Below are positions 3,925 through 22,751 of a stretch of 64,000 bases of DNA, in pieces. Source of the stretch: Prochlorococcus sp. AG-673-L20 (lineage in GTDB: Bacteria; Cyanobacteriota; Cyanobacteriia; PCC-6307; Cyanobiaceae); NCBI GenBank assembly GCA_003211135.1, contig QCTN01000006.1, positions 1-64,000 on the forward strand, written 5' to 3'. A program made the position numbers and the translations under genes. Within the stretch, counting starts at the first letter, position 1, and each line of letters starts with the position of its first letter. The notes below the pieces were generated by a model. The model saw only the letters and a list, made by a program, of their open reading frames with translations, did no database searches and had not been told where the DNA came from.

Positions 3925-3943
3925 ATAACTTGGATTATTAGAG

Positions 3944-3988
3944 TCGGGGCGACAGGATTCGAACCTGCGACCTAGTGTTCGAAAAGCA
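3944..3988 (-). pseudogene. tRNA-Pro 3' half with altered anticodon loop
   Basis: The 3' acceptor strand and T-arm are identical to tRNA-Pro at 10104. The anticodon loop has changed from TTTGGGA to TTTTCGA and the stem has a mismatch, so it cannot be a proline tRNA. The sequence to the right has only a vague D-arm-like GGTAGAG. It is a displaced copy left by integration, or a chimera with another tRNA. Confidence 0.7.
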
Positions 3989-4070
3989 CTCTACCCCCTA
4001 TTAGCAGCACTACGTTTTCGAGCTATAATTAATATCTTGCGTAGTATTGCGTTATTTGTCGGTAATTTTT

Positions 4071-4766: not shown

Positions 4767-4788
4767 AGTATGAATTGGTTTTTAAGAG

Positions 4789-4838
4789 TCGGGGCGACAG
4801 GATTCGAACCTGCGACCTAGTGCTCCCAAAGCACCCGC
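4789..4838 (-). pseudogene. tRNA-Pro 3' half scar
   Basis: Fifty bases are identical to the 3' half of the intact tRNA-Pro, from the discriminator base through the T-arm and anticodon arm. Beyond 4838 the D-arm is degenerate (CCTCCAATTTGAGACA in plus orientation), a variant shared with the scar at 7977. The 5' acceptor strand is absent, so no functional tRNA can form. Confidence 0.85.
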
Positions 4839-4967
4839 CCTCCAATTTGAGACACCAAGTCTAATAAACAAGTGCTGCTATAGCTTATTAGTTGATATGA
4901 CGAAGATTAATATGAGTCTCAGTACTGCACCTTAGTTATACAAAGACTATCAAAGATATACAAATAA

Positions 4968-5045: not shown

Positions 5046-5969
5046 ATGAAAAGTCACAAGGTTAAAACTGAAAAGATTAAGAGATCAAATCCAAAAAAAA
5101 ATTCCGAAGAGATCAAGAACCTAGCGAGCATAATGAATACTACTTTTGAGAATATAGAAAAAAGTTCATGGGGAAGATATTCAACTGGTGTTCCAGTAAG
5201 TTTCTATGACTTAGATGCAATGACTCAAGGTCTTCAAAGAGGTTCTTTAGTCGTTGTTGCGGGAAGGCCTTCAATGGGTAAGACATCTTTCGCAACAAAC
5301 TTATCAAGAAATGTAGCTCAGGCTAATAAACAACCTGTTTGTTATTTCAGCTTGGAGCAAAGTAAAGAACAATTAAGTTATAGATTTTTATCTATGGAGC
5401 TTGGGATTGAGTCAGGAAGATTAAGAACAGGAAGACTTCAAGAGGATGAATGGCCTTTACTTGGAAATGAAATAGAGAGAATTAGGGAGTTACCTTTATT
5501 TGTTTGTGATAAAGGTTCCATTAAAGTTAAGGAAATGCTCTCAAAAAGCAAAAAAATAAAAGAGAAATGGGGTAATGGTGAACTTGGATTAATTGTGGTT
5601 GATTATGTGCAAATGATGAATGGACCGAACAAAAAATCAAGGGATAAAGAATTGTCTAAGATTATTCTTGATCTCAAAGAGATGGCTAAAACCCTAGATG
5701 TTCCTGTTGTTTTGATGTCTCAACTTTCTAGAGATATTGAGAAGAGAGATAATTGTCGCCCAATGTTATGCGACTTAAGAGAAACTCATGGATTAGAGGC
5801 TCATTCAGATGTAGTTATTATGCTTTACCGAGATGAGTTTTATCATCCAGAAACAGATGAAAGAGGTATCGCAGAATTGATAGTTACAAAACACAGAAAT
5901 GGTCCAGTAGGTACTGTTAAATTAATTTTTGAACCTCAATTTACAAGATATAGAAATCTTGCTGCATAA
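5046..5969 (+). CDS. DnaB-like helicase, C-terminal ATPase domain only
   Basis: A RecA-fold ATPase of the DnaB family: Walker A GRPSMGKT at residues 73-80, Walker B IVVDYVQMM around 180, and the MSQLSRDIEKR block. At 307 residues it is about two-thirds of a replicative DnaB and lacks the N-terminal domain that mediates hexamer packing and primase contact. The usual LRESGAIEQDAD segment near residue 245 reads LRETHGLEAHSD, so the core-genome sequence has drifted. A Lys-rich N-terminus replaces the missing domain. It may be an element-borne replication factor or a dominant-negative decoy of host DnaB; either is inference. Confidence 0.85.
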   Translation: MKSHKVKTEKIKRSNPKKNSEEIKNLASIMNTTFENIEKSSWGRYSTGVPVSFYDLDAMTQGLQRGSLVVVAGRPSMGKTSFATNLSRNVAQANKQPVCYFSLEQSKEQLSYRFLSMELGIESGRLRTGRLQEDEWPLLGNEIERIRELPLFVCDKGSIKVKEMLSKSKKIKEKWGNGELGLIVVDYVQMMNGPNKKSRDKELSKIILDLKEMAKTLDVPVVLMSQLSRDIEKRDNCRPMLCDLRETHGLEAHSDVVIMLYRDEFYHPETDERGIAELIVTKHRNGPVGTVKLIFEPQFTRYRNLAA

Positions 5970-7976: not shown

Positions 7977-8026
7977 TCGGGGCGACAGGATTCGAACCTG
8001 CGACCTAGTGCTCCCAAAGCACCCGC
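7977..8026 (-). pseudogene. tRNA-Pro 3' half scar
   Basis: Identical over 50 bases to the tRNA 3' half at 10104 and to the scar at 4789, with the same degenerate D-arm to the right. Unlike the others it has no terminator hairpin on its left. Confidence 0.85.
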
Positions 8027-8154
8027 CCTCCAATTTGAGACAGTAACCTAAATAAACAAGTCTGGCTATGGCAAGTTAGTTGCAATATCAAAGGAGTTGT
8101 GAGTCTCAAAAACAGGTCAAAGGTATACAAAATTATCTATAAATATACAAATCC

Positions 8155-10081: not shown

Positions 10082-10103
10082 CTATGACTTGGTTTTTTAA
10101 GAG

Positions 10104-10177
10104 TCGGGGCGACAGGATTCGAACCTGCGACCTAGTGCTCCCAAAGCACCCGCGCTACCAAGCTGCGCCACGCCCCG
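10104..10177 (-). tRNA. tRNA-Pro (anticodon UGG)
   Basis: Read on the minus strand it folds completely: acceptor CGGGGCG pairs with CGCCCCG, discriminator A, D-arm GGCGCAGCTTGGTAGCGC, anticodon stem GGTGC/GCACT with loop TTTGGGA (anticodon TGG), and T-arm GGTTCGAATCC. It is the only intact copy in the window. The anticodon arm and 5' half lie inside the 43-bp repeat that flanks element C, so integration of C rebuilt this gene from a chromosomal 3' half and an element-borne 5' half. Confidence 0.96.
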
Positions 10178-10179
10178 CT
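10137..10179 (+). repeat. Left attachment repeat of element C (43 bp)
   Basis: Identical to 18588-18630. It begins in the anticodon loop and ends two bases beyond the tRNA 5' end. The first 17 bases, GCTCCCAAAGCACCCGC, are also shared with the scars at 4789 and 7977, so this anticodon-arm stretch is the smallest common core of all three insertions. Confidence 0.85.
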
Positions 10180-10187
10180 ACTGACTA

Positions 10188-10217
10188 ATAATAGTCTATC
10201 ACTAGCATTTTAGTAAA
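10188..10217 (-). promoter_or_regulatory. Possible tRNA-Pro promoter supplied by element C
   Basis: On the minus strand TTTACT (10217-10212) and TATTAT (10193-10188) are separated by 18 bases, with the -10-like box 10 bases before the tRNA 5' end. The sequence lies inside element C, so the rebuilt tRNA would depend on an element-borne promoter. Confidence 0.4.
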
Positions 10218-10245
10218 ACGATTGCTGCACCAATACATTTGGCTT

Positions 10246-10304
10246 GTAGTGATTTGTAGTGATTTAGTGGAATTTATAGTAAATCCTCGCTAAATTGTCA
10301 CTAA
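10246..10304 (+). promoter_or_regulatory. Left arm-site cluster of element C
   Basis: GTAGTGATTT is repeated in tandem at 10246 and 10256 (its complement contains AAATCACTAC). TCGCTAA at 10287 and TCACTAA at 10298 form an 11-bp-spaced pair. The cluster lies between the tRNA and the integrase gene. Matching pairs lie inside the other end at 18449-18525. Confidence 0.55.
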
Positions 10305-10319
10305 GGAAACCAATGATTT

Positions 10320-10371
10320 CTCACTAAATATAGGATCAAATAGTGAGGAATTAGATAAGCACCCGCGTTAC
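10320..10371 (+). promoter_or_regulatory. Inverted repeat and core-like sequence before integrase
   Basis: CTCACTA (10320-10326) and TAGTGAG (10341-10347) form a perfect inverted repeat containing the arm word TCACTA. Directly before the integrase start, AAGCACCCGCGTTAC (10357-10371) repeats the anticodon-arm/D-arm junction of tRNA-Pro with one change. The site could bind integrase and control its own gene, or be a vestigial core. Confidence 0.4.
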
Positions 10372-10373
10372 TA

Positions 10374-11654
10374 ATGACAACTTCAAAAGTTAATTCTGAT
10401 TTTTGGGTACAAGGAGTACGTCAGCAATTAAAACTTACTTCAGGAGTTGGATCAAGTTACAGAATAAGCCAACAATCGGGCAGGTGTAAATTAGATGTCC
10501 AATATTCTGATAAATCGAGAAAAGTTGCAACATTACCTATTGATTGGAAGCAAGAAAATGCAAGATTAATTGAAAATTCAGTAATTAAAATTGCAAGATT
10601 TGTTTCTGCAGGGAAAACATTAAAAGAAGCAGTTGCAATTACATTTGGAGGTAATAGTGAAGCTCCTGAACCAACTGAAGATGAAGCCATTGTTGATTTA
10701 ATACTTAGCTTTGATATTTGGGGTAAAAATAAAGTTGCTAATAAAGAAATAATGCAATCAACTTGGGATGACAGTTATCAGAAATATAGAAAGAAGTTGG
10801 AATATGTACTCTCAACCAATGAAGTAACCAACTCTAAAAGACTATTGGAGCTACTTGTTAAAGTTCAGATGCCCAACAGTAGACCACATTTACATGCAGG
10901 TACTCGAACAAGAGAACAAGTTGTTGGAGCTGTTTGTACTTGGTTAGAAGAATCAACAGAATTGGAAGAATTTGAAGAAGGTTATCTAAACCCTAAATTT
11001 TGGACTCCACCCAAAAAAGGAAGTAAAGCTAAGAAAAAACTTGTTGGTCATCATGTAAGTAAAACAGATGCAATTCCAATTTATGATGATGAATTTATTA
11101 AATTAATTGATGAAATAAGATCATCCAAAAGAGAAAAAATTGCTGCTGAGAGATACATATTTTTAATTCAGCTCATCAACGTATATGGCATCCGCCCACA
11201 TGAAGCACCAAGATTATCAGTAGAAAATATAGGTGGTAAGAAAAGTGTTTATTGTAATAGCTCTAAGAGAACAAGTTTAGGATCAAGTCCAGAAAATAGA
11301 GAATTATATGGATTGCACCAATATTGGGAAAATGAATTTGATTTAATTAAAAAAATTGAGAATAATTATGCAATTCCTCCTAGTGGAGATAAAGGATTGG
11401 GAGATGCACTTGGTAAGTATTTAGCAAAGGTTGATTATTGGAAGCACTTAAGAGAAACAAGAAAGTTAGTTCCATACTCTATGCGTCACGGATTCGCCTA
11501 CAGGATGCACCAAGATCCAAGATATAGCAAGAAGATCAGCTCAAGATTTGGAGCAGCTCTAATGGGTCACTCGCACCAAATTCATCTCGAAACTTATGGT
11601 AAATGGACACCGCAGGGCAATATGAGAACCACTTTGGATGATTTACTTTCTTAG
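10374..11654 (+). CDS. Tyrosine recombinase (integrase) of element C
   Basis: A 426-residue phage-type integrase next to its tRNA target. The C-terminal catalytic domain has Arg274 (GIRPHE), Arg371 (YSMRHG), His399 (MGHS) and the nucleophile Tyr408, nine residues after the His as in XerD. At the usual HxxR His position it has Tyr368. Residues 1-220 hold arm- and core-binding regions (Lys-rich linker near 210). It should cut the anticodon-arm core of tRNA-Pro and bind the TCGCTAA-type arms. The gene ends 4 bases inside the convergent HNH gene. Confidence 0.93.
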   Translation: MTTSKVNSDFWVQGVRQQLKLTSGVGSSYRISQQSGRCKLDVQYSDKSRKVATLPIDWKQENARLIENSVIKIARFVSAGKTLKEAVAITFGGNSEAPEPTEDEAIVDLILSFDIWGKNKVANKEIMQSTWDDSYQKYRKKLEYVLSTNEVTNSKRLLELLVKVQMPNSRPHLHAGTRTREQVVGAVCTWLEESTELEEFEEGYLNPKFWTPPKKGSKAKKKLVGHHVSKTDAIPIYDDEFIKLIDEIRSSKREKIAAERYIFLIQLINVYGIRPHEAPRLSVENIGGKKSVYCNSSKRTSLGSSPENRELYGLHQYWENEFDLIKKIENNYAIPPSGDKGLGDALGKYLAKVDYWKHLRETRKLVPYSMRHGFAYRMHQDPRYSKKISSRFGAALMGHSHQIHLETYGKWTPQGNMRTTLDDLLS

Positions 11655-12280
11655 TGTCTCCATTTTAAAAATAACTCGCCTTTATATTTATATTTCTGCA
11701 TTATGTTTATCCAATCCAACTCATCATCATAATTAAATTTTGATCCTTTAATAGAATTTTCAAAATGCCAAATTGGTTGTAAATTTCTCCAACTACAACA
11801 TAAATTCCATTGCTCAATATCTCTTAAATCAAATGTTGATTTTGGTCTTATGTGATCTATACACCAACCATTGTTTCCTCTATTGCTCCAATTCATCTCA
11901 TCATAAAACTGCTCTTCAATATGTTTTATAAAAAAATCAAAACTACACCCGCATAACTTTTGCATACTTGCATCTCTATCAGCTCCCCTTCTTCTCAAAA
12001 CCCTCCTCAGATTATCTTTCCACATGTGATTCTTTTTAAATATTGGATCAGTATTAAATTTCTTTTTCTTGTATTCAATATCGTAAGCAGTTAATTTTTC
12101 CTTATTTTTTATTCTGTATTGCCTGTTGTATTCTTTGATCCACGCAACACCTGCAGGGGACTCCTTCCACGCTTTATGCCTAGCCTTTAATATTGCTCTT
12201 CTATCAGGATCAGCCCACTCTGCAGCCTTATAAACCCTATCGTATTCCTTCTTCCTAGCTTTGTTATAACTAGCCTTCAT
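11651..12280 (-). CDS. HNH endonuclease
   Basis: 209 residues. A Lys/Arg/Tyr-rich N-terminal half leads into an HNH fold: CIDHIRPKSTF with Asp142-His143, then RNLQPI (Asn166) and HFENSIKGS (Asn175). In phages, HNH proteins encoded beside terminase genes act in packaging-linked DNA cutting; free-standing ones can be homing nucleases. It is last in the five-gene overlapping minus-strand operon 13565-11651 and overlaps the terminase-like gene by 11 bases, so it is probably made with it. It has no capsid-gene neighbour. Confidence 0.85.
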   Translation of the reverse strand: MKASYNKARKKEYDRVYKAAEWADPDRRAILKARHKAWKESPAGVAWIKEYNRQYRIKNKEKLTAYDIEYKKKKFNTDPIFKKNHMWKDNLRRVLRRRGADRDASMQKLCGCSFDFFIKHIEEQFYDEMNWSNRGNNGWCIDHIRPKSTFDLRDIEQWNLCCSWRNLQPIWHFENSIKGSKFNYDDELDWINIMQKYKYKGELFLKWRH

Positions 12281-12698
12281 AATTAATTACCCTGCCACCT
12301 TCCAACGCTTGCAACTGCTGTTGCATATCCTCCATTTTTTGTCTCATCTCCCAATTAATTTCTTGATTATTCATGTATCTGAAAATAATATCTGCAGCTT
12401 GGTTTCTCGCGTATGCTCTCTCTTTTGGATTGGTTGCTGTTTTGATAAGTGTTTCAGCTACTTTTGGAAAAGCCTTAAATAATTTATTTTTGCCTTCAAC
12501 TGCTGATTCTTTAACAAGATCAGTATAAAATTTTTGCAATTCTGGTTCTTCTTTCCAATATTTTTTTACAGTTCTTGGATCAATACCCACTTCTTCGCAT
12601 GCAGGTTTCCACTTCATGCCCTGCGAGTATTTAACAACTACTGCATAAACTTTTGCAGGTATTGCATCATTAATATTTGCTGCTGAAATTGTACTCAT
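12270..12698 (-). CDS. Small terminase subunit-like protein
   Basis: 142 residues arranged like phage TerS: an N-terminal helix-turn-helix (WKPACEEVGIDPRTVKKYWK, residues 30-49), a central helical region with many Ala and Arg, and a C-terminal Gln-rich coiled coil (MRQKMEDMQQQLQALEGG) suited to oligomerisation. TerS proteins recognise the packaging site and recruit the large terminase. A lone TerS without TerL is the hallmark of satellites that redirect a helper phage's packaging. The start overlaps the stop of the upstream 47-residue gene (ATGA). The name rests on reading, not on a search. Confidence 0.7.
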   Translation of the reverse strand: MSTISAANINDAIPAKVYAVVVKYSQGMKWKPACEEVGIDPRTVKKYWKEEPELQKFYTDLVKESAVEGKNKLFKAFPKVAETLIKTATNPKERAYARNQAADIIFRYMNNQEINWEMRQKMEDMQQQLQALEGGRVINYEG

Positions 12699-12838
12699 TC
12701 TCTTTCGTTTAATTCTTCTAAAATTTGTCTTTTTCTAGTTTTTAATGGAGCAAGTTCATTCCTGAACCAAGTCAACTCGCAGTTGATCTTGTATTCAATT
12801 TGTTCCAATTCATCCTCTAATAGTTTTCTCCTTTTCAA
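12695..12838 (-). CDS. Small coiled-coil protein, 47 aa, TTG start
   Basis: It begins with TTG overlapping the upstream stop (TTGA) and ends overlapping the next start (ATGA), so it is translationally coupled on both sides; this precise fit is the main evidence that it is real. The sequence is highly charged and helical (LKRRKLLEDELEQIEYK at the N-terminus, KTRKRQILEELNERE at the end), like a short coiled coil. It lies between a 165-residue unknown protein and the TerS-like gene, so it may assist packaging. No family recognised. Confidence 0.65.
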   Translation of the reverse strand: MKRRKLLEDELEQIEYKINCELTWFRNELAPLKTRKRQILEELNERE

Positions 12839-13332
12839 TCTTGCCCCTTATCCCAAGTAGGTTGATTTGTGATGCCCCACCGCTCCCGCGCTGCCATAAT
12901 CTGCTCCTGACTTAGCGGGGGCATGTGTTGCATCCCTTTTGGTCTATTTTCATGAAAATTTGCAACCGCATCATTTTTTGCTTTTGATTCAGCAATCTTT
13001 TTATCTAATATCATTTTTTCAGCAACTTCAACATCACGTTGCATGTTGGCAGCCAATCCAGAAAACCCTGCCTGCCTGTAGATAGGTATATCATCAACCC
13101 ATAGTTGGTTTTGCCTGTATCTATTTAAAACATCTGCAGGGAGAGTATCTTCAGGCTTGGGATTAATTATTCTTTGTAGTAAATGAGGAGCTGTATTTTC
13201 CATCTCCATTCTTACTGCTAATTCAATATCTTTTGCTGATTTTGGCATCTTCCCAATCTTTTTATTTGGAAAGTTCTTTTGCATAAATTCAACATATTCT
13301 GCGGTGTTGTCTATTTGTGGAAATTCCATCAA
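12835..13332 (-). CDS. Hypothetical protein, 165 aa, packaging operon
   Basis: Second gene of the overlapping operon; its start overlaps the upstream stop by 4 bases (ATGA). Hydrophilic, Met/Gln/Asn-rich, no signal peptide or membrane segment. The N-terminus is acidic with aromatic residues (EYVEFMQKNF), the middle helical (ANMQRDVEVAEKMILDKK), and the C-terminus Pro-rich (MPPLSQEQIMAARERWG). No catalytic motif or family recognised. Its location beside TerS and HNH genes suggests a role in DNA packaging or helper-phage interference. Confidence 0.65.
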   Translation of the reverse strand: MMEFPQIDNTAEYVEFMQKNFPNKKIGKMPKSAKDIELAVRMEMENTAPHLLQRIINPKPEDTLPADVLNRYRQNQLWVDDIPIYRQAGFSGLAANMQRDVEVAEKMILDKKIAESKAKNDAVANFHENRPKGMQHMPPLSQEQIMAARERWGITNQPTWDKGQD

Positions 13333-13565
13333 TAACCTCTCCTAAATTTTTGTAATCTGCGCTGCACATGTTCTTTTTTTATGTTGGGACATCTTTGAAG
13401 TAAAAGTTTGTTGGGGTGTTCCCCAGTTCTTTTGCATCTTTCGTACCAATGCAACGCAAGAGAATCGCACATGTTGCCATCATGCGGTGCAGCTTGCCTT
13501 GCAGCTTCATTGCAACGACTCATTAATTTCCATTCTTCTTGAGATAAATTCCAATCGGATTCCAT
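13329..13565 (-). CDS. Hypothetical protein, 78 aa, packaging operon
   Basis: First gene of the minus-strand operon. It is small and basic at the C-terminus (VQRRLQKFRRGY), with four cysteines (RCNEAAR, NMCDS, ERCKR, QRCPN) that may bind a metal or form a small DNA-binding fold. A TATAAT box on the minus strand at 13600-13595 lies about 30 bases before the start. No family recognised. Confidence 0.6.
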   Translation of the reverse strand: MESDWNLSQEEWKLMSRCNEAARQAAPHDGNMCDSLALHWYERCKRTGEHPNKLLLQRCPNIKKEHVQRRLQKFRRGY

Positions 13566-13952
13566 ACAGTAGAATTTCGTTAATTATTATTTTAATTATA
13601 ACATTTTTATTTAATTTGTATTATTTAGTATTGCAATTATCTACCCTTATTTGTTATATTTATATGAAGGTTCAGAGCCTACCGAAAATATTTTCAGAAA
13701 TCTGCAATATCACCCCCCTGTATTACAAATAAGGAATAATAATATCAGTATTAGTTATAAATAATTCAGCAAATATAGTTAATAAAAATATTTTAATAAG
13801 TAATAGAATATCACTTTAATATAAGTTATTTTGTATGTACAAATTACAACATCTATTTATAAACAATTCGCTATTGCTCTAATTTAGAAAAGAGCAACTG
13901 CAGCAGTAAATCGATTGCAATAGCTTGCTCATAATTTATTAACCAATTACAC
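13566..13952. promoter_or_regulatory. Divergent control region between two operons
   Basis: A 387-base A/T-rich gap between the minus-strand packaging operon and the plus-strand recombinase. Toward the left operon there is a TATAAT box (minus strand, 13600-13595). Toward the recombinase there is a perfect inverted repeat TTGCTCT/AGAGCAA (13874-13880, 13891-13897) and a wider pair GCTATTGC/GCAATAGC (13870-13877, 13917-13924), operator-like and ending 28 bases before the start. I see no gene in it. Confidence 0.45.
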
Positions 13953-14564
13953 ATGCCAAAAGATCAACGCTTTGGGCAGGCAGCAATCCTTCCTCCTGAG
14001 CAGCTCCAAGATTTATGTAATTCTTTTCCTGTTGGTCAGCATAAATACATCTCACTTGTATTAGCTTTCTCAGGTGCAAGAGTTTCAGAAGTGTTGGCTT
14101 TGCAATGGAGAGATATTAAAGATGATTACATCCTGTTCAAATCAATTAACACTAAAACAAAGAAAACTCGCAATGTAAATTTGCATCCAAAACTAAAATC
14201 ACATTTGAAAGATTGGAAAGAAAAATATTGGTATCAATTTCCAATGTTAAATCAAAACAAAAGAAACCTTGAAAGGCGCGCTCCAACTCCTGATTGCTTC
14301 CTTTTTAGAGGAAGGTATAAAAACACCCATTTAACGCGGCAAGCCTACGATAAGCAATTAAGGGCGCAACTTGATTACTTACTTATAGAGGGCGCAACTA
14401 CTCACTCATATAGGCGCAGCAATTTAACTGCAGCCAAAGATGCGGGAATTGCTTTATCTGACATTATGCAAATTTCAGGTCACTCATCACTTGATGCCCT
14501 GAATAAATATTTAGCTCCAAATGAGAAGGAGATGAAAAAGGTTGTTGGTGCTTTTGGATTTTAA
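13953..14564 (+). CDS. Second tyrosine recombinase, catalytic domain only
   Basis: 203 residues made of almost only the catalytic fold, with a complete active site: Arg43 (GARVSE), a beta-hairpin Lys around 68-70, His151 and Arg154 (THSYRR), His177 (SGHSS) and Tyr186, nine after the His. It lacks the N-terminal core-binding domain of ordinary XerC/D-type enzymes. It is distant from the attachment sites and has its own inverted-repeat region upstream. It could resolve element multimers, act as excision helper or invert DNA; all are inference. It ends 4 bases inside the convergent 55-residue gene. Confidence 0.88.
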   Translation: MPKDQRFGQAAILPPEQLQDLCNSFPVGQHKYISLVLAFSGARVSEVLALQWRDIKDDYILFKSINTKTKKTRNVNLHPKLKSHLKDWKEKYWYQFPMLNQNKRNLERRAPTPDCFLFRGRYKNTHLTRQAYDKQLRAQLDYLLIEGATTHSYRRSNLTAAKDAGIALSDIMQISGHSSLDALNKYLAPNEKEMKKVVGAFGF

Positions 14565-14728
14565 TTAAATTCTTTTTTACCTTCAATTTTTAAGCAAAGA
14601 GTCCATTGATCCAATTCTGGTTCAGGAGTATTTTCATCAATTACAACCATCCGCAATGTGGGTGGTTTTTTTACTTGTTGGACTTTCTCAATGCGCCTTT
14701 GTAATCTCTCCAAATCCTTGAAATTCAT
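14561..14728 (-). CDS. Hypothetical protein, 55 aa
   Basis: Small and charged: MNFKDLERLQRRIEKVQQVK forms an amphipathic helix, followed by a beta-like stretch (TLRMVVIDEN) and an acidic/Trp C-terminus. It overlaps the end of the recombinase gene tail to tail by 4 bases. It lies on the strand of the replication operon but 380 bases downstream of it, so it may have its own transcript. Family not recognised. Confidence 0.5.
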   Translation of the reverse strand: MNFKDLERLQRRIEKVQQVKKPPTLRMVVIDENTPEPELDQWTLCLKIEGKKEFN

Positions 14729-15110
14729 TGCCCCATAAATGATTTACTCCATTCTAAGATTTTTCTACAGAAAATACATGCAAAGAACAACATCAAAAAA
14801 CTATGTTGGAAGATCAATTCTCAACACCTGATCTATTGCATCCCAATGCTTTTGGCGGGGATGTTGGAATGTAGGAGCGGTTGCATACTTATTCACAAAT
14901 CTGCAGGGAAACAACAAAGAAGAACAAAAGAATAAAAATCAATCTACTTTTACAACATTGTTTGTAATTGGTTGTTGCCCAACGGATTTGATGTTGATAT
15001 TACGCTTCCTACAAATAACCTACATTCAACAATTCACTCCACTTTGGGGTGGAGCAAACATACGCAAAGAATTTTATAGGTATCTTGTAGCTCAATCTGA
15101 GGGGAGCAAT
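14729..15110. other. Non-coding region of element C (possible origin or packaging site)
   Basis: A 382-base gap, the largest in element C with no convincing gene. It holds a hairpin CTCCAC/GTGGAG at 15037-15054, a smaller GTTG/CAAC hairpin near 14970 and a CTGCAG at 14901. A 23-codon plus-strand frame starting near 14803 reads like protein but is too short to support. It lies at the 3' end of the primase gene, a plausible place for a replication origin or packaging site. Confidence 0.3.
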
Positions 15111-17585
15111 TTAGACTTTATAAGGTTTATTTGGTTTATATCGAATAGAACCTGCCTTCTTGCCACCTGTTATTTCTCCAAAACCCATATATTCCAATTT
15201 AACTATTGATTCAATACATATTTCCTTATTCCACTTTTTCCTATCTTTAGGACTCAAGGCTTGTTGGATTTCCCTCCAAGCAACAGGAGATTTACTTCTT
15301 AAACAAATATTTTGTATTTTCTCCATTCGCAGCTCTTCATCACTTTTTGTATTTTCCCTTTGGAAGTTAATAGCAAAGTCATCAAAGAAATCTACAAATT
15401 CTATTGCTGCAAGCAATGTATCTTTGGATATGTGTTCAACAGGTTCTTCAATATGTTTGATGATATGAAGCAAGCCTGCAACGCGCCCAACTTTACCTGC
15501 ACTTTTGCAAAGCAATGCAGCATGTGATGCAAGTTTTGATGCCTGCGCTTCCACTTGCTTTTTAAATTCATAATCAAAAAACAGTTGTTGCGCTTCATCT
15601 GATAACTCATAAGTAAAATACATTTGCCCATAAACTAACTTCAGAAAATTCTGCAGGTATTGTTTAGCAGTTCTATGCTCCTCCTTTTGCAGTTGGGACA
15701 ACACTTGGAGTTTTACAGGAATTGAAGGTAATGGAGAAAAAATATTCCGCGCCCATAAACCATTCTCATCTCCATTTTTTATAAGATCAGCAAGAATTTT
15801 ATCTTGGATATTCCCATAAAGTGATACTTGGCTTTTGCTGCAGCTCCTAACTTTGGTGCTTCCTTTGGAGTCCAGGCGGATTGATGTAAAACCACCTCCA
15901 TCAAAATATTCCAATAAACTCTCTACTTGGCTGCCCCTTCCCTTTGTATATTTATTCATGCTTTGGAAGAACCCACTTAATTCATCTCGCAGTATTAATA
16001 GTGATCTTCCCTTTTGCTCCTGTATCTCAAGTTGCTTTTGCGTTGATTCTTCAGTTAAGTCCCCTACAGTAACCATTGTCCTTGTAGGTGGTTCAACTTT
16101 CTCTTCCTTATTTTTTGCTGCCTGTAAGTATTCAGCAAATTCAAATTTATATTTATTGCTAATTTCTGCTTCAATCTGACTCAATGGTTCTTTTATTAGA
16201 TTCCTTAAAAGTGGAGTCTTTTTAGCACCTGTTTTACCTACTGTAATTACATAAAGATTTGCAGGTACAACATAATCTGAACCCTCATTCAAGATTACTT
16301 TTGTATCTAGTCTCAATGCACCCGCAACCGCAGGGAGGAAAGTACTAATAATTAAATAATCAGGATATGGCAAGAATTTAGTAATTACTCTTAGATTCTT
16401 GGATAGTTCAGGTGGAAAGATATTCTCCAACTTAATTTTCTTTTCCTTATTAATTACTTTTGAGTTTTCATAAACCCATTTGCGCCCACCGCCAAATTTG
16501 GCTTGCCATACTAAACAACCAATATCAGATTTAATTGGTTCATAAATTGTTGGCAGCTCCTTAATAGGATTCCAATAATCACTTTCCCACTTTGCACTAA
16601 TACAAATTTCAGCAGTTATTTCAGCACCAAAATGCTTTTTCATGCCTGCCAAAATGTTTATACAATCAAATCTTTCTCCCTTACCTGTAGTTGATCTATT
16701 AACAACAAAGCCAAGCATCTCAACTGCAAGCGGGATTCTTGTTTCTAGTGGCAGCCTAGTAAACCAATTACCCTCATTTAATTCTGCAGTATTATAATTT
16801 TTTGCTCTTTGGGAAAAAGGTTTTGTAAGGTCAGTAGTAGTTGCTGCAGGTGGGATTTCTTTTTGATCTTGAATTTTACCTCCAAAAATTAACCCTTCAA
16901 TAAATTTTGGATTGTATATTAATATCCCTTTTTGTTCTCCCCATCCTTGAGAAATCCTATAAAAAATAGTTTTTTTACCTGAAGGATGAAATCCACCAAC
17001 CGCTCTCATCACTTGGCAGGGGGAATGAATACTCTTATCAGCACCAAAATCCTCATCTTGCTCATTGCAAATTACCTGCAATCGCTTTTGCATCTTGGTA
17101 AACCTTTCCTTATCAATAAACTCACTTAATAAGAAATAAAAATGCAATGATTTACCTCCTGAGAAGGTAACAAAGGAAGCGGGCATTGCCATTGCATCAA
17201 ATACAACTTCAACTTGCTTTTCCAAAGGTAAATTCCCATCCCCTTCAGTAAACAAGCATCTTGCTCCTTTTATATGTGAGTTACTTGCACCCCACGTTTT
17301 AACAAAACCTGCAGGGTTTAAATCTTCTTTTCTTGAACCATAATCAGCAGGCTTTTCAATAGTTGGATTAACTATTAAACCAAGAGAATGTTTAGGATTC
17401 TTTTTTAAACAATCTTCAACCTTCTTTTCAAAATTAGATTCTGTTGGGAAGTGATAGCATCTACCACTCTCCTTTTTGGGTGGGAAGATAGTCCAAATAG
17501 GTTTTGGATTTGATATTAAACCTGCATGTAATTTTGCAGTTTCCCAATCAACCAACGATTTTCTTTTATCAGAAATTTGAGTCAT
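15111..17585 (-). CDS. Primase-helicase with DUF3987 ATPase domain
   Basis: 824 residues. The N-terminal 250 look like an archaeo-eukaryotic-type primase: an acidic pair in LFTEGDG (114-116), SGGKSLHFYF (142-151) and later VMRAVGGFHPSG. From about 390 a DUF3987-type ATPase follows: Walker A GKTGAKKT at 450-457 and an acidic Walker B in LLILRDELSG near 540. A C-terminal winged-helix-like part ends it. Such fused proteins start and drive replication of satellites and plasmids. It is last in the minus-strand operon after the excisionase-like gene. Confidence 0.85.
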   Translation of the reverse strand: MTQISDKRKSLVDWETAKLHAGLISNPKPIWTIFPPKKESGRCYHFPTESNFEKKVEDCLKKNPKHSLGLIVNPTIEKPADYGSRKEDLNPAGFVKTWGASNSHIKGARCLFTEGDGNLPLEKQVEVVFDAMAMPASFVTFSGGKSLHFYFLLSEFIDKERFTKMQKRLQVICNEQDEDFGADKSIHSPCQVMRAVGGFHPSGKKTIFYRISQGWGEQKGILIYNPKFIEGLIFGGKIQDQKEIPPAATTTDLTKPFSQRAKNYNTAELNEGNWFTRLPLETRIPLAVEMLGFVVNRSTTGKGERFDCINILAGMKKHFGAEITAEICISAKWESDYWNPIKELPTIYEPIKSDIGCLVWQAKFGGGRKWVYENSKVINKEKKIKLENIFPPELSKNLRVITKFLPYPDYLIISTFLPAVAGALRLDTKVILNEGSDYVVPANLYVITVGKTGAKKTPLLRNLIKEPLSQIEAEISNKYKFEFAEYLQAAKNKEEKVEPPTRTMVTVGDLTEESTQKQLEIQEQKGRSLLILRDELSGFFQSMNKYTKGRGSQVESLLEYFDGGGFTSIRLDSKGSTKVRSCSKSQVSLYGNIQDKILADLIKNGDENGLWARNIFSPLPSIPVKLQVLSQLQKEEHRTAKQYLQNFLKLVYGQMYFTYELSDEAQQLFFDYEFKKQVEAQASKLASHAALLCKSAGKVGRVAGLLHIIKHIEEPVEHISKDTLLAAIEFVDFFDDFAINFQRENTKSDEELRMEKIQNICLRSKSPVAWREIQQALSPKDRKKWNKEICIESIVKLEYMGFGEITGGKKAGSIRYKPNKPYKV

Positions 17586-17613
17586 AATAAGTATGTAAAA
17601 TTTAATTTTTTAG

Positions 17614-17637
17614 GGTTGTTGTAGCAGCCCTTTTTTT
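17614..17637. terminator. Hairpin with T run before the primase gene
   Basis: GGGTTG can pair with CAGCCC around TTGTAG (17614-17631); TTTTTTT follows on the plus strand. For minus-strand transcription it lies between the 50-residue gene and the primase gene, where it could attenuate read-through. No plus-strand gene needs a terminator here. Confidence 0.4.
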
Positions 17638-17788
17638 ATGAGTTACGTTGATTATTTTCTTCATCCACTTCCCTCTCAACCATCTGCAACAGATGTTCTA
17701 TAAGTAATACTTTTTGCTCTATATTCATCCCCTTATCTGCAGCCAACTGCAGCTCCAATTCAAATCTTTTCTTATTTATATATGACAT
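17636..17788 (-). CDS. Hypothetical protein, 50 aa
   Basis: Begins MSYINKKRFELELQLAADKG and ends in an acidic tail (EREVDEENNQRNS). The whole protein could be one long amphipathic helix or a helical hairpin. It lies 2 bases after the excisionase-like gene on the same strand, which supports co-transcription. Its reading frame carries two CTGCAG hexamers. No family recognised. Confidence 0.55.
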   Translation of the reverse strand: MSYINKKRFELELQLAADKGMNIEQKVLLIEHLLQMVEREVDEENNQRNS

Positions 17789-17790
17789 AA

Positions 17791-18045
17791 TCAGCAACCA
17801 ACAGCAGGTGCAGGAGGAGCTGTAAATTCAGCCATACGCAATAGGATTTGCTCAACATTCCAAAGAATTGGGGAAGTTTTGCCCTGACTCACTTTTATAT
17901 AGTGGATTCGAGGTTCAAGAAAACCATCCCTCCTATAATTCTGCAGGGTTGCAAAGTGTATTCCTATTTTTTCAGCAGCTTCTTTGGTGGAACACCAAGA
18001 ACCAGAAGGGAGTGAATTAGGTACTCCATTAAATTTTTTCAGCAT
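17791..18045 (-). CDS. Excisionase-like DNA-binding protein
   Basis: 84 residues with a winged-helix/MerR-like DNA-binding core: WCSTKEAAEKIGIHFATLQNYR (split over residues 17-38), then an Arg/Asp-Gly turn and a short wing ending in LWNVEQILLRMAE. This is the layout of phage excisionases and AlpA-like regulators, which bind arm DNA next to integrase sites and set the direction of recombination. It is upstream of the primase in the same operon, so excision and replication could be switched on together. Confidence 0.7.
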   Translation of the reverse strand: MLKKFNGVPNSLPSGSWCSTKEAAEKIGIHFATLQNYRRDGFLEPRIHYIKVSQGKTSPILWNVEQILLRMAEFTAPPAPAVGC

Positions 18046-18053
18046 ATTTTGGA

Positions 18054-18266
18054 CTAGGAGCTGACTCTTCTCTTCTTTATGAGTTCGTTATAAACAGGGA
18101 TATTCGATTCTTCCCAAATGACATCTTTATACTTTTCCTGATTTAAAAACTTCTCCCAAGCCTTTGGGGAGTTTTCCGTTTTAGGATTGTATTCAGCAGA
18201 AATCGAAGAACCATCCAATAATTTGGATTGATCCTTTTTGGGATAACGATTGTTTAACTTGCTCAT
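18054..18266 (-). CDS. Hypothetical protein, 70 aa
   Basis: First gene of the right-hand minus-strand operon. Hydrophilic, Lys/Asn/Pro-rich (NNRYPKKDQSK near the start, NSPKAWEKFLNQEKYKD in the middle, KKRRVSS at the end), with no signal peptide or membrane segment. It ends 8 bases before the excisionase-like gene. Probably an element regulator or accessory protein; no family recognised. Confidence 0.55.
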   Translation of the reverse strand: MSKLNNRYPKKDQSKLLDGSSISAEYNPKTENSPKAWEKFLNQEKYKDVIWEESNIPVYNELIKKRRVSS

Positions 18267-18448
18267 AAACAGAAAAGATTGTTTACTAGCCCGTCATCCC
18301 GCTAAAGATAAAATCTCGCAGTTGGAAAATCAGTTCTCTTTTCGACTAATAAATGAGTAACTAATTTTTGGCGTTCCAATGCCAACTTGCTATCAATATA
18401 ATCTCTTTATTTAATTACTGCAAATATTTATAAGTAATTACAAGCTGC

Positions 18449-18525
18449 TCACTAATTCTCGCTAAAATGTGGGACTGATCCCTGTATTCCCAACAGTTTT
18501 CAAGACCCTCACTAATCGTCACTAA
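18449..18525 (+). promoter_or_regulatory. Right arm-site cluster of element C
   Basis: Two pairs: TCACTAA 18449 with TCGCTAA 18459, and TCACTAA 18509 with TCACTAA 18519, each 10 bp apart. They lie 63-139 bp inside the right attachment repeat and match the left pair at 10287. The half-sites share TCRCTAA. Confidence 0.55.
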
Positions 18526-18587
18526 ATAAACTGTAATATTTTTGCTTAGTCTAGTTATTGCAATGCTTCTAGTTTGTAATACCGATA

Positions 18588-18630
18588 GCTCCCAAAGCAC
18601 CCGCGCTACCAAGCTGCGCCACGCCCCGCT
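18588..18630 (-). pseudogene. Right attachment repeat: orphan tRNA-Pro 5' half
   Basis: Identical to 10137-10179. It contains the tRNA from its 5' end to the anticodon loop and then changes abruptly to element sequence, so no T-arm or 3' acceptor exists. DNA to its right is chromosomal, so the original tRNA promoter should still point into element C on the minus strand. Confidence 0.9.
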
Positions 18631-18633
18631 CAT

Positions 18634-18955
18634 AAGATCTTAATTCATAACAGTCATCTATAAAAGACCAAATTGCAAAATATTTTATAAATAAAAGGTT
18701 TTCAGTAATAATACATTCATTTTTACTAATATCCGTGGCTTCTTTTTTAGTAAAAAAGTTTGCAAATCTTTTGGAGCTGCACTAATAAATCCACTAAAAT
18801 TATCTAATGATACAAGTTGTTCTTAATGAGGTTTCTTCTACAGATTAGATTAAATTATTATTTTTTAAAGATTCTGATTAAAAAATTCATTCAAGTTAGA
18901 ATAAGGTTAGAACTAATTAGTTAAACCTTTCAAACTAATTCCCAGATTATGGAGA
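18634..18955. other. Gap right of the island
   Basis: A 322-base A/T-rich stretch between the island end and apt. It should contain the original upstream region of tRNA-Pro. I see no gene, RNA or clear repeat in it. Confidence 0.4.
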
Positions 18956-19468
18956 ATGAAAAAGCTCATAGAACTAATCGAAACATATAAAGATTTTCCT
19001 AATAAAGGAATTGAGTTCAAAGATGTCCTTGGAATTATTCAAGAACCAAAGATATTCAAGGAACTTGTTACGAAGATGTCAGCTAGTCAAATTATAAATA
19101 ATGCCGATGCAATAATTTCTATAGATGCTAGAGGTTTTATTTTTGGTTCTGCAATTTCTTTCCATGCATCAAAACCAATGATTGTAGCAAGAAAGCCAGG
19201 TAAGCTCCCAGGAGAACTTTTTAAAAAATACTATAGTCTCGAGTATGGCGAAAATTCGCTTTCTGTTCAAAAAAAAGCCCTACAAAAATATAATTCTTAT
19301 GCGATTGTTGATGATTTATTAGCTACAGGAGGGACAGTTAATTGTATTTCTAATATACTTAAAAGTAATAATAAAGAAGTTACTGGACTTTTAGTTGTAG
19401 TGGAATTATTGAAGCTGGAAGGAAGACTAAAACTTGATTTTCCAATTGAATCATCGGTAATTTTTTAA
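18956..19468 (+). CDS. apt: Adenine phosphoribosyltransferase
   Basis: 170 residues, the standard length. It converts adenine and PRPP to AMP in cytoplasmic purine salvage. Visible features are DFPNKGIEFKDV near the N-terminus, the RGFIFG segment and RKPGKLPGE flexible loop, and the PRPP-binding motif AIVDDLLATGGT near residue 122. It is the first recognisable core gene to the right of the island. Apt enzymes normally act as dimers. Confidence 0.93.
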   Translation: MKKLIELIETYKDFPNKGIEFKDVLGIIQEPKIFKELVTKMSASQIINNADAIISIDARGFIFGSAISFHASKPMIVARKPGKLPGELFKKYYSLEYGENSLSVQKKALQKYNSYAIVDDLLATGGTVNCISNILKSNNKEVTGLLVVVELLKLEGRLKLDFPIESSVIF

Positions 19469-20060: not shown

Positions 20061-20196
20061 AATTACCTGAAATAATAAAAGTGGTGAGATTGATAAACTG
20101 TCACATATTTTTTGGAAATGTATCCGTCGCTACTTGATTTTGTGTAAGTATTTACTCTATTATAAATTGTCCTTTAAATTTCGTGTGAGGAAATTT

Positions 20197-21387
20197 ATGA
20201 AGCTTTTCCAAAGCTTGCTTGTAGCTCCTGCAGCATTAGGCTTACTAGCCCCTATGACTGCTACAGCTAATGAGCTTAATATTACTGAAGTAACTGATTA
20301 TTCTTCATCAGAAGAAATTCAGAGCATTAGTGATTTTAACCCTGCAAAAGAACTTGCAGTAACTAACAGCCGTGTTGATGGCTTAGAAGCTAGATTCAAT
20401 AATTTTGAAGCTGGTGCTTTCTCAGAAACAACAACTGCATCATTCTCTGTTGATTTTGCAATAGGTGCACTTGACGGCAAAGGTACAACTACAACAGTTA
20501 CAGATGGAGACGAAACTCTTCAAGCTGTTTACGGTTTCCAGATTGATTTAAACACAAGTTTCACTGGTGAAGATTCATTAGACATCTCACTTGATGCTGG
20601 TAATGGTGTAACTTCTAGTGGATCATTAACTGGACCACTTGCTGAATTTGACCTTAATGGTGGTAGTGAAGCATTAACTGTTGATGGTGTTTCTTATACT
20701 TTCCCAGTAGGCGATAAAATGACTGTTATTGTTGGCGACAACACTGACGGTAGTGCTATGTTTACAACAGCATGTGCTTATGGTGGACCATCTAATACTC
20801 TTGATGATTGCGCTAATGTAAATGCCGGAATCACTAATGGTGGATTAGCGGTAGGAGCAAGCTACGAAATCGGTAACGGCTTCACTGCTGCTGTCGGTTA
20901 TGCTGGTGCTGAAACAGGAATCTTGACTGAAGGAGTTATGGATGCTTATGGTGCTAACCTTTTTTATGACGGAGGTAGCTACGGAGTATCAGTGACTTAC
21001 GGAATCATAGAACAAACTGCTACTACTGAAAATACTTACACCGCCCTTAATGGTTACTATTCTTTTGATAATGGCCTTTCAATCAGTGCTGGTTATGAAG
21101 TAGGTGATCTTGGTGGTGGTACTGCACTAGCTGATGAAACAGAAGCATATTTCATTGGAGTTAATGGTGAAGTAGGTCCAGGTGAATTAGGCGCTGCTAT
21201 CGGTACTGCTGGAGTTACAACAGAATCTTCTGGTAACATGATCGAACGATTGATGTATGAAGCGTACTACTCTTACGAAGTAAATGATGGAATGACAGTC
21301 ACTCCACTTGTTTATGTTAAGGAAGGAACTTCAGCAACTGATACTGATGAAACTGGCATGATGGTTAAGACATCTTTCAGCTTCTAA
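20197..21387 (+). CDS. Outer-membrane porin, first tandem copy
   Basis: 396 residues from the ATG at 20197, with a Sec signal (MKLFQSLLVAPAALG to TATANE). A longer frame from 20134 would bury the signal and is rejected. After a variable N-terminal region of about 50 residues comes a Gly/Thr/Asp-rich beta-barrel with alternating polar and aromatic residues and a terminal Phe (TSFSF), the outer-membrane insertion signature. It should form a diffusion channel. The last 322 codons and the terminator are apparently identical to the copy at 21561. Confidence 0.88.
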   Translation: MKLFQSLLVAPAALGLLAPMTATANELNITEVTDYSSSEEIQSISDFNPAKELAVTNSRVDGLEARFNNFEAGAFSETTTASFSVDFAIGALDGKGTTTTVTDGDETLQAVYGFQIDLNTSFTGEDSLDISLDAGNGVTSSGSLTGPLAEFDLNGGSEALTVDGVSYTFPVGDKMTVIVGDNTDGSAMFTTACAYGGPSNTLDDCANVNAGITNGGLAVGASYEIGNGFTAAVGYAGAETGILTEGVMDAYGANLFYDGGSYGVSVTYGIIEQTATTENTYTALNGYYSFDNGLSISAGYEVGDLGGGTALADETEAYFIGVNGEVGPGELGAAIGTAGVTTESSGNMIERLMYEAYYSYEVNDGMTVTPLVYVKEGTSATDTDETGMMVKTSFSF

Positions 21388-21560: not shown

Positions 21561-22751
21561 ATGAAGCTTTTCAAAAGCTTACTTGTAGCTCCAGCTACTC
21601 TAGGACTTTTAGCTCCTATATCTGCAATTGCAACTGAAGTTAATCTCGATGAGATTTCAAACTACTCTGATGTAGAGAGTATAGAATTTGCGAATTCTTT
21701 TAAAACTGATGAATTAGCTGAAAGTCAGTTAATTGCTGGTGGAGAAGGAATGGTTGATAGTCATAATCATGATTCAGATTCTTTTTCAGAAACAACAACT
21801 GCATCATTCTCTGTTGATTTTGCAATAGGTGCACTTGACGGCAAAGGTACAACTACAACAGTTACAGATGGAGACGAAACTCTTCAAGCTGTTTACGGTT
21901 TCCAGATTGATTTAAACACAAGTTTCACTGGTGAAGATTCATTAGACATCTCACTTGATGCTGGTAATGGTGTAACTTCTAGTGGATCATTAACTGGACC
22001 ACTTGCTGAATTTGACCTTAATGGTGGTAGTGAAGCATTAACTGTTGATGGTGTTTCTTATACTTTCCCAGTAGGCGATAAAATGACTGTTATTGTTGGC
22101 GACAACACTGACGGTAGTGCTATGTTTACAACAGCATGTGCTTATGGTGGACCATCTAATACTCTTGATGATTGCGCTAATGTAAATGCCGGAATCACTA
22201 ATGGTGGATTAGCGGTAGGAGCAAGCTACGAAATCGGTAACGGCTTCACTGCTGCTGTCGGTTATGCTGGTGCTGAAACAGGAATCTTGACTGAAGGAGT
22301 TATGGATGCTTATGGTGCTAACCTTTTTTATGACGGAGGTAGCTACGGAGTATCAGTGACTTACGGAATCATAGAACAAACTGCTACTACTGAAAATACT
22401 TACACCGCCCTTAATGGTTACTATTCTTTTGATAATGGCCTTTCAATCAGTGCTGGTTATGAAGTAGGTGATCTTGGTGGTGGTACTGCACTAGCTGATG
22501 AAACAGAAGCATATTTCATTGGAGTTAATGGTGAAGTAGGTCCAGGTGAATTAGGCGCTGCTATCGGTACTGCTGGAGTTACAACAGAATCTTCTGGTAA
22601 CATGATCGAACGATTGATGTATGAAGCGTACTACTCTTACGAAGTAAATGATGGAATGACAGTCACTCCACTTGTTTATGTTAAGGAAGGAACTTCAGCA
22701 ACTGATACTGATGAAACTGGCATGATGGTTAAGACATCTTTCAGCTTCTAA
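21561..22751 (+). CDS. Outer-membrane porin, second tandem copy
   Basis: 396 residues with a Sec signal (MKLFKSLLVAPATLG to IATEVN). The first 75 residues differ from the upstream porin, including a His/Asp-rich stretch (VDSHNHDSDS); the rest is the same protein to the terminal TSFSF. The bases just before the start (TGTGAGGAATTTATG) are nearly the same as before copy 1. Each copy has its own terminator, so the two are probably expressed separately. Confidence 0.88.
   Translation: MKLFKSLLVAPATLGLLAPISAIATEVNLDEISNYSDVESIEFANSFKTDELAESQLIAGGEGMVDSHNHDSDSFSETTTASFSVDFAIGALDGKGTTTTVTDGDETLQAVYGFQIDLNTSFTGEDSLDISLDAGNGVTSSGSLTGPLAEFDLNGGSEALTVDGVSYTFPVGDKMTVIVGDNTDGSAMFTTACAYGGPSNTLDDCANVNAGITNGGLAVGASYEIGNGFTAAVGYAGAETGILTEGVMDAYGANLFYDGGSYGVSVTYGIIEQTATTENTYTALNGYYSFDNGLSISAGYEVGDLGGGTALADETEAYFIGVNGEVGPGELGAAIGTAGVTTESSGNMIERLMYEAYYSYEVNDGMTVTPLVYVKEGTSATDTDETGMMVKTSFSF

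Follow-up and report, generated by a model that had tools for sequence, protein, structure and literature searches.

The window analyzed here takes up bases 1-64,000 of contig C6 (68,590 bases) in the draft genome of Prochlorococcus sp. AG-673-L20 (1.42 Mb, 54 contigs, 83.8% complete). At a tRNA-Pro(TGG) gene it carries an 8,451-bp element resembling a phage satellite, bounded by exact 43-bp direct repeats at 10137-10179 and 18588-18630 (repeat spacing 8,451 bp; whole span 10137-18630), in agreement with a first-pass annotation of the same DNA. Within the tRNA the repeat reaches from the 5' end as far as the anticodon stem and is therefore no chance repeat. The copy on the integrase side (10137-10179) is the 5' half of tRNA-Pro and is now part of an intact tRNA on the minus strand (10103-10177; ARAGORN; Infernal 64.7 bits), and the copy at the far end (18588-18630, minus strand) is the displaced original 5' half.

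The borders were assessed against genomes in which the site is empty. A host phosphoribosyltransferase-like gene lies beyond the far repeat (18956-19468, plus strand; here 'apt', a name given by eye), and its homologue is found upstream of tRNA-Pro in other genomes, close upstream at empty sites. When the joined window flanks were compared with 29 other loci carrying an 'apt' homologue, they aligned across the crossover in 18 loci (17 from position 1-2 to at least 133, and one to 116), which identifies the element as an insertion; the occupied left junction aligned at those loci over the tRNA or part of it only. In 10 of these loci the distance from the tRNA to 'apt' came within 180 bp of that in the joined flanks (three of them in a single alignment); in the remaining eight the difference was larger, and some of the eight have extra tRNA halves and DNA in between. 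By comparison with these loci, the intact 8,451-bp unit is a real insertion with defined borders and a recognizable empty site.

Divergent from the tRNA lies the gene for INT1, a tyrosine recombinase of 426 amino acids (10374-11654, plus strand) that matches the integrase family phrog_216 at E=1.8e-4 and Pfam PF00589 at E=0.02, below the family cut-off. INT1 shares 40-69% identity with the integrases of elements at tRNA-Pro in four other genomes; at E 0.001, homologues turn up in 234 of the 266 genomes, which leaves a bare INT1 match with little weight. A second recombinase, INT2 (13953-14564, plus strand; 203 amino acids; PF00589 2.2e-15), consists of the catalytic part only, and a homologue lies near the small terminase-like (TerS-like) gene in 17 of 20 relative regions, which were taken around that gene from 20 of the 23 other genomes that have one. 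Judged by eye from an alignment, INT2 keeps the tyrosine recombinase catalytic residues and lacks the N-terminal half; it may serve to resolve multimers or in regulation. On the minus strand, a DUF3987-type primase-helicase of 824 amino acids (15111-17585) matches PF13148 at 2.8e-37 and the DNA helicase family phrog_2373 at 9.6e-20, and its N-terminal part has what we take, by eye, to be archaeo-eukaryotic-type primase motifs. An excisionase-like (Xis-like) helix-turn-helix (HTH) protein (17791-18045, minus strand), with homologues in the relatives, matches DUF1233 at 1.9e-4 (21.4 bits, just under the 22-bit cut-off) and HTH_17 at 6.7e-4, also below cut-off. The EndoVII/HNH-like nuclease (11651-12280, minus strand) matches the endonuclease VII family phrog_1035 at 2.9e-8, has a conserved DH-RP motif and was found in 111 phage records by tblastn; Pfam gave no HNH match.

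No supported match to a large terminase, portal, capsid or tail protein was found among ten element open reading frames (ORFs) searched with Pfam and PHROGs or among ten proteins of a slightly different set searched with NCBIfam; the ORF at 14561-14728 lay outside these scans and that at 17636-17797 was covered by NCBIfam only. A head-scaffold row at E=0.32 was discarded as chance level. PADLOC found no defence genes among ten proteins, eight of them from the element. The first-pass annotation had listed an integrase, a second recombinase, a DUF3987 primase and an excisionase-like gene, with no particle genes, and this inventory holds up. It had also proposed a minus-strand operon of TerS-like and HNH proteins and profile searches for the terminase, HNH and DUF3987 families; those searches recovered DUF3987 and endonuclease VII, and the terminase assignment turned out to be better founded for the protein family than for the single protein.

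The TerS-like protein (12270-12698, minus strand) has a helix-turn-helix and two long helices, and was assessed by PHROG profiles, by its family and by its predicted fold. TerS-like matches occur in 24 of 266 genomes of the genus, its own included (23 of 265 others). When 23 family members were compared with profiles, among the best 25 of 41 PHROG families phrog_1482 (TerS) matched 5 of the 23 (best 9.5e-7) and six further TerS families matched 2-5 members each, possibly the same members; Pfam returned mainly HTH families for these proteins, with one Sf6_terminase match at 0.017. The predicted model of the window protein (predicted local distance difference test, pLDDT, 85.5) retrieved the phage protein phBC6A51 (2ao9) or the small terminases of PaP3 and NV1 in the best 15 rows of a Foldseek search of the PDB (probability 0.80-1.00). 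A viral structure library gave one row at E <0.001 (3.1e-4, unnamed) and several small terminases at 0.01 or worse, and VIA-align superposed the model on 2ao9 with Z 7.4 (root-mean-square deviation 4.6, 104 aligned) and on Sf6 TerS with Z 5.1 (5.1, 63 aligned). A search of PDB sequences with the TerS profile yielded chance-level rows only. Among phage records, the best match of the window protein was a Lactobacillus phage TerS (4e-3 over 53% of its length), and the 15 records found at a limit of E 10 include four Streptococcus satellite phages (0.03-0.3; Javan328 0.03). The TerS-like protein of one relative (G008) matches three Streptococcus satellite phages (best Javan586, 4e-5), and that of a relative at tRNA-Ser (G043) had no match among phage records. 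The terminase call, weak for the protein alone, is thus backed by its family, its predicted fold and its likeness to streptococcal satellite-phage proteins.

The element is quite likely an integrative phage satellite of Prochlorococcus, probably one that borrows virus particles. INT1 would recombine the element's attachment site with the anticodon region of tRNA-Pro(TGG), and excision, helped by the Xis-like protein, would restore both. The excised circle would be replicated by the DUF3987 primase-helicase, and the TerS-like protein, with the EndoVII/HNH nuclease, may then tag the satellite's DNA so that a co-infecting cyanophage's large terminase and procapsid accept it. Excision in living cells and autonomous replication are thus predicted from the genes present, and packaging by a helper is our best inference.

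Several observations weigh against the satellite reading. Alone, the TerS-like protein matches phrog_3802 (TerS) at a marginal E=0.04, below HTH and transposase rows, and its best PHROG row is a transposase (3.1e-3); it is also a transposase PHROG that matches the most family members (8 of 23). The Foldseek search of the PDB gave no significant match (best E=0.028), and the top VIA-align rows include unrelated helical proteins that score like small terminases (phi29 gp7, Z 6.0; a SWI/SNF chain, Z 5.2). An HNH homologue is present in just 5 of the 20 relative regions. No helper phage and no cos/pac site was identified. Scans of IMG/VR viral contigs with the primase, the TerS-like protein, an integrase alignment and the replicases of two relatives confirmed no relative, the primase alignment giving one weak, unconvincing match (25% over approximately 106 residues; L093); such scans need short conserved peptides and favour close relatives, and are therefore weak negative evidence. 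A DNA search of INPHARED with 10381-18380 (E 0.01) found no phage record sharing DNA, INT1 had no homologues there, and the primase matched three gut-phage records only, at 22-26%.

This lack of well-supported relatives of the primase, integrase and TerS-like protein among viral contigs and phage genomes, together with the weak TerS matches of the single protein and the transposase matches of its family, would also suit a tRNA-borne integrative element that is not a phage satellite, one that moves in vesicles or by DNA uptake and whose HTH protein is a regulator or replication partner, not a terminase subunit. We regard this as unlikely, given that three lines (TerS PHROGs, TerS-like folds, satellite-phage matches) point the same way for the family and that the EndoVII/HNH gene adjoins the TerS-like gene both here and in the five relative regions that have it.

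The satellite reading can be followed into the relatives. The DUF3987 protein was found in 9 of 266 genomes, its own included, four of the others being full-length (E <1e-100) and four short or broken. Of the 20 relative regions, 14 contain tRNA-Pro or its halves, four contain tRNA-Ser(TGA) and one contains tRNA-Arg(TCT), with none in one short contig. Replicases vary among ten representative proteins examined with Pfam: DUF3987 in the window, Prim-Pol with PriCT_2 and AAA_25 in G029, AAA_25 in G008 and G059, and a VapE-like domain in G043. For integration and replication genes of their own and a lack of particle genes, the relatives were examined through ORF lists of nine regions and the same ten proteins in Pfam. 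Between the window and scB243_498I20 (G041), INT1 is 69%, the product of a small ORF (o70) 83% and Xis 68% identical, and the primase is 33% and TerS 44% identical; between the elements of G041 and G076, INT2 is 90%, TerS 89% and the product of another ORF (o165) 64% identical. Judged from these identities, modules are exchanged between elements. Furthermore, an element of this type is common to AG-907-L10 (G217) and AG-402-I23 (G120), with 97.6% identity across 8,457 bp, of which 94 bp lie outside the 5' half. Past that point, in the one flank present in both contigs, there is no match; at the opposite end the contig of G120 breaks off within the element. A 5.5-kb core locus, the one locus compared, is 89.2% identical between the two hosts, so the element type moves; recent horizontal transfer of a relative is evident from this comparison.

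A decayed prophage that has lost its structural genes would leave phage-type genes without structural ones. That origin is very improbable here, considering the exact attachment repeats, the open reading frames that other genomes carry in a similarly compact order, the exchange of modules, and the near-identical relative in two hosts that are 11% apart at the core locus. The evidence supports a complete, intact and mobile satellite-like element, as the first-pass annotation had proposed; the helper cyanophage that it also invoked is an inference.

Streptococcal satellite phages and PICIs have a compact layout of integrase, Xis and primase, like that of the window element. The TerS-like proteins of the streptococcal (Javan) satellites are detectably similar to those described here; unlike with those elements, neither INT1 nor the DNA of the whole element has an INPHARED match. 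The element also resembles the tycheposons of Prochlorococcus, some of which are said to be described as viral satellites in the abstract of the founding paper by Hackl and colleagues from 2023. That paper reportedly assigns tycheposons to seven tRNA genes and a recombinase clade. The window element shares with them the genus, a tRNA border with a partial tRNA copy at the other end, and a tyrosine recombinase, and its 8,451 bp fit the size of 4-200 kb given in PMC10872708. Tycheposons are also described in PMC10187409, PMC10803314, PMC11389934 and PMC12416821, and the tycheposon label of the first-pass annotation fits as far as these second-hand descriptions set it. The PICMI satellites of Vibrionaceae, as presented in PMC10803314, are likewise minimal, with an integrase, a small HTH protein, a DUF3987-type primase and no capsid genes. 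The combination of integrase, AlpA-like HTH protein and DUF3987-type primase is present in the window element, with the HTH_17 match below cut-off. PICMIs integrate at fis, which is described there as a hallmark, whereas the window element sits at tRNA-Pro and differs further in having the TerS-like and EndoVII/HNH proteins and a second recombinase.

The side from which the element entered its tRNA is less usual. The intact tRNA is preceded by DNA supplied by the element (10178-10373, minus strand), which lies between the divergent tRNA and integrase genes and contains a -10-like TATTAT at -16 from the tRNA and TCRCTAA arm-like motifs at 10287, 10298 and 10321. The ancestral upstream (promoter) region of tRNA-Pro (18631-18690, minus strand) is stranded beside the displaced 5' half: a 94% alignment pairs 18588-18682 with positions 7-101 of the upstream region and tRNA of a relative. 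In at least 76 of 131 sampled genomes, among the matches listed, the alignment takes in the intact tRNA-Pro and also the greater part of a 60-bp sequence upstream of it that these genomes have in common (query positions 23 or less to 134). In the window that sequence stands beside the displaced half (18588-18682) and the intact tRNA is joined to unrelated upstream DNA, an arrangement found likewise in G217, G041 and G209. By comparison, then, the element entered on the 5' side of the tRNA, which acquired a new front half and element DNA upstream, and the displaced half keeps the ancestral promoter region. Infernal reported 31 tRNA matches above cut-off in the genome, and among the 30 that were typed two are tRNA-Pro, TGG and GGG (with the genome 83.8% complete, a further copy is possible), so that TGG is, by standard decoding rules, the sole reader of CCA and CCG. 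The tRNA-Pro(TGG) is likely essential, and activity of its putative new, element-borne promoter is predicted. Each of the five element-side upstream regions compared has a hexamer with at most one mismatch from TATAAT at -16 or -15, with shuffle fractions of 0.006-0.10 per element; the slot was picked after the ancestral promoter was seen, and a single hexamer is weak evidence.

The replacement recurs within the genus. In at least 11 of the 131 genomes the match of the intact tRNA starts at the tRNA itself (position 59 or 61), and in ten of these an integrase homologue adjoins the tRNA on its 5' side: G000 and G209, of the INT1 clade, and eight genomes of a second clade with a 462- to 470-residue integrase. 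The eleventh, G141, has no integrase homologue beside the tRNA and was discounted. As at most six places were scored in most genomes, the at least ten swaps are a lower bound. The second class of 5'-side elements (L129-L136, upstream of tRNA-Pro in eight genomes) has a common tRNA upstream region, and in the fetched stretches of L129-L136 the satellite cassette was not found, short traces excepted (HNH and Xis in L130; TerS and o165 in L134).

Because the surrounding island is full of tRNA half copies, and 3' halves also lie upstream of the tRNA around other elements (L129, L131, L133 and L135), the 5'-side position and the differing upstream DNA might be by-products of rearrangement in a hypervariable island and not a property of the integrase. 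This appears improbable. All five integrases of the INT1 clade lie on the 5' side (four judged by the intact tRNA and L035 by its 5' half), as do the eight of the second clade, and the displaced half has kept the ancestral upstream region. On an integrase tree the 5'-side label requires two changes, against a mean of 6.6 when shuffled, and none of 200 bootstrap trees explained it with one change; near-copies ease clustering and inflate this contrast, the position of several long branches is uncertain, and one change is all that the firmly supported branches require by themselves. Counted over the window and the 12 relative regions with an intact tRNA, five-prime halves are upstream in 10 of 10 cases and three-prime halves downstream in 19 of 20; the exception is a piece of 36 bp (86%) in L042, and a piece of 29 bp in L038 that spans both kinds was left out. 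A strict side rule for half tRNAs would be too strong, as the second integrase class also has 3' halves upstream.

Motifs resembling integrase arm sites lie at both ends of the element. Besides the three TCRCTAA copies upstream of the tRNA, four are found at the far end (18449-18525, plus strand) in two pairs, 10 bp apart. As many as these seven in the two end intervals occurred in none of 2000 random placements. The end enrichment is also present in L037 and L038 (1/2000 each) and absent in L034 (200/2000) and L035 (146/2000). Over the whole window the motif is not in excess (22 versus 16.5 expected; 11 of 100 shuffles reach 22), so the end motifs, which look like arm sites of the integrase, are unusual by placement and not by number.

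According to the review PMC8371274, a bacterial tRNA that has been restored by an integration event continues, very few exceptions apart, to use its original promoter. Integration into a 5' half that brings in an element promoter is known, in the same account, from archaeal pTN3-like elements and is rare among bacteria. The window element shares with pTN3-like integrases, as described there, an attachment site in the 5' half of the tRNA and a restored tRNA that would be expressed from an element promoter. It differs in being bacterial and in having an unsplit integrase gene with the tRNA divergent from it, so that the tRNA would need its own promoter in the element arm. A term search for tRNA-promoter swaps in bacteria gave this review alone as relevant, and other reports may exist in print. 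According to PMC10187409, another picocyanobacterial integrase is typically upstream of tRNA-Phe or tRNA-Cys, so 5'-side integrases at tRNAs are not wholly new.

We tentatively suggest that satellites of the INT1 clade, by entering at the 5' half, capture the promoter of the CCA/CCG-reading tRNA. The element-borne promoter would be flanked by integrase arm sites, and proline decoding could then be throttled or boosted when an intasome assembles or a helper infects. This mode of entry may be common to two integrase clades, and related satellites would load the same tRNA from the 3' side, keeping the host promoter.

The remaining ORFs of the element lie on the minus strand. Between the TerS-like gene and INT2 are o47 (12695-12838; 47 amino acids; conserved, with homologues at the same place in some relatives), o165 (12835-13332; 165 amino acids) and o78 (13329-13565; 78 amino acids). 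The latter two are conserved near TerS in many elements, as seen in 16-row alignments, and are candidates for satellite-specific packaging or interference factors. o165 has a confident helical model (pLDDT 87.9), and its fold search gave no BFVD match at E 0.001 or better (best 2.4), re-examination against the PDB no row above Z 3.5, and PHROGs no support. A conserved 55-residue ORF lies beside INT2 (14561-14728; homologues in relatives), a 53-residue ORF at 17636-17797 has weak homologues in L050 and L052, and the conserved o70 (70 amino acids) lies at 18054-18266.

Elsewhere in the window, four 3'-half copies of tRNA-Pro lie across the tRNA from the element (1364-1409, 3943-3989, 4785-4845 and 7977-8033). 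Three have nearby TCRCTAA motifs, and 11 of the 22 window motifs lie within 250 bp of a tRNA piece; the four copies are probably scars of older 3'-side elements. A DnaB-like helicase ORF (5046-5969, named by eye) between two of the 3'-half pieces is perhaps a leftover of an older element. A tRNA-Glu called by ARAGORN at 3943-4014 is probably false: its span runs into a tRNA-Pro 3' half, and Infernal, which has a tRNA-Glu above cut-off at C6:67916, does not report it. Two tandem porin-like genes (named by eye; 20134-21387 and 21561-22751) show 99.2% identity in 989 bp of the 3' part and 75% in a short segment of the 5' part, which may reflect recent conversion, duplication or an assembly effect.

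An element of this kind is already known in outline. What is uncommon is the takeover of a tRNA upstream region, seldom reported in bacteria, which recurs in the genus and is tied to an integrase clade. Within Prochlorococcus, related elements enter the same tRNA from either side, one kind keeping and the other replacing its upstream region. The element provides a defined, intact candidate satellite of 8.45 kb with exact ends in a marine phototroph of great abundance, and four named genomes hold relatives from its integrase clade. Two questions come within reach of experiment: the identity of the cyanophage that packages elements of this kind, and the possible control of a host tRNA by a mobile element.

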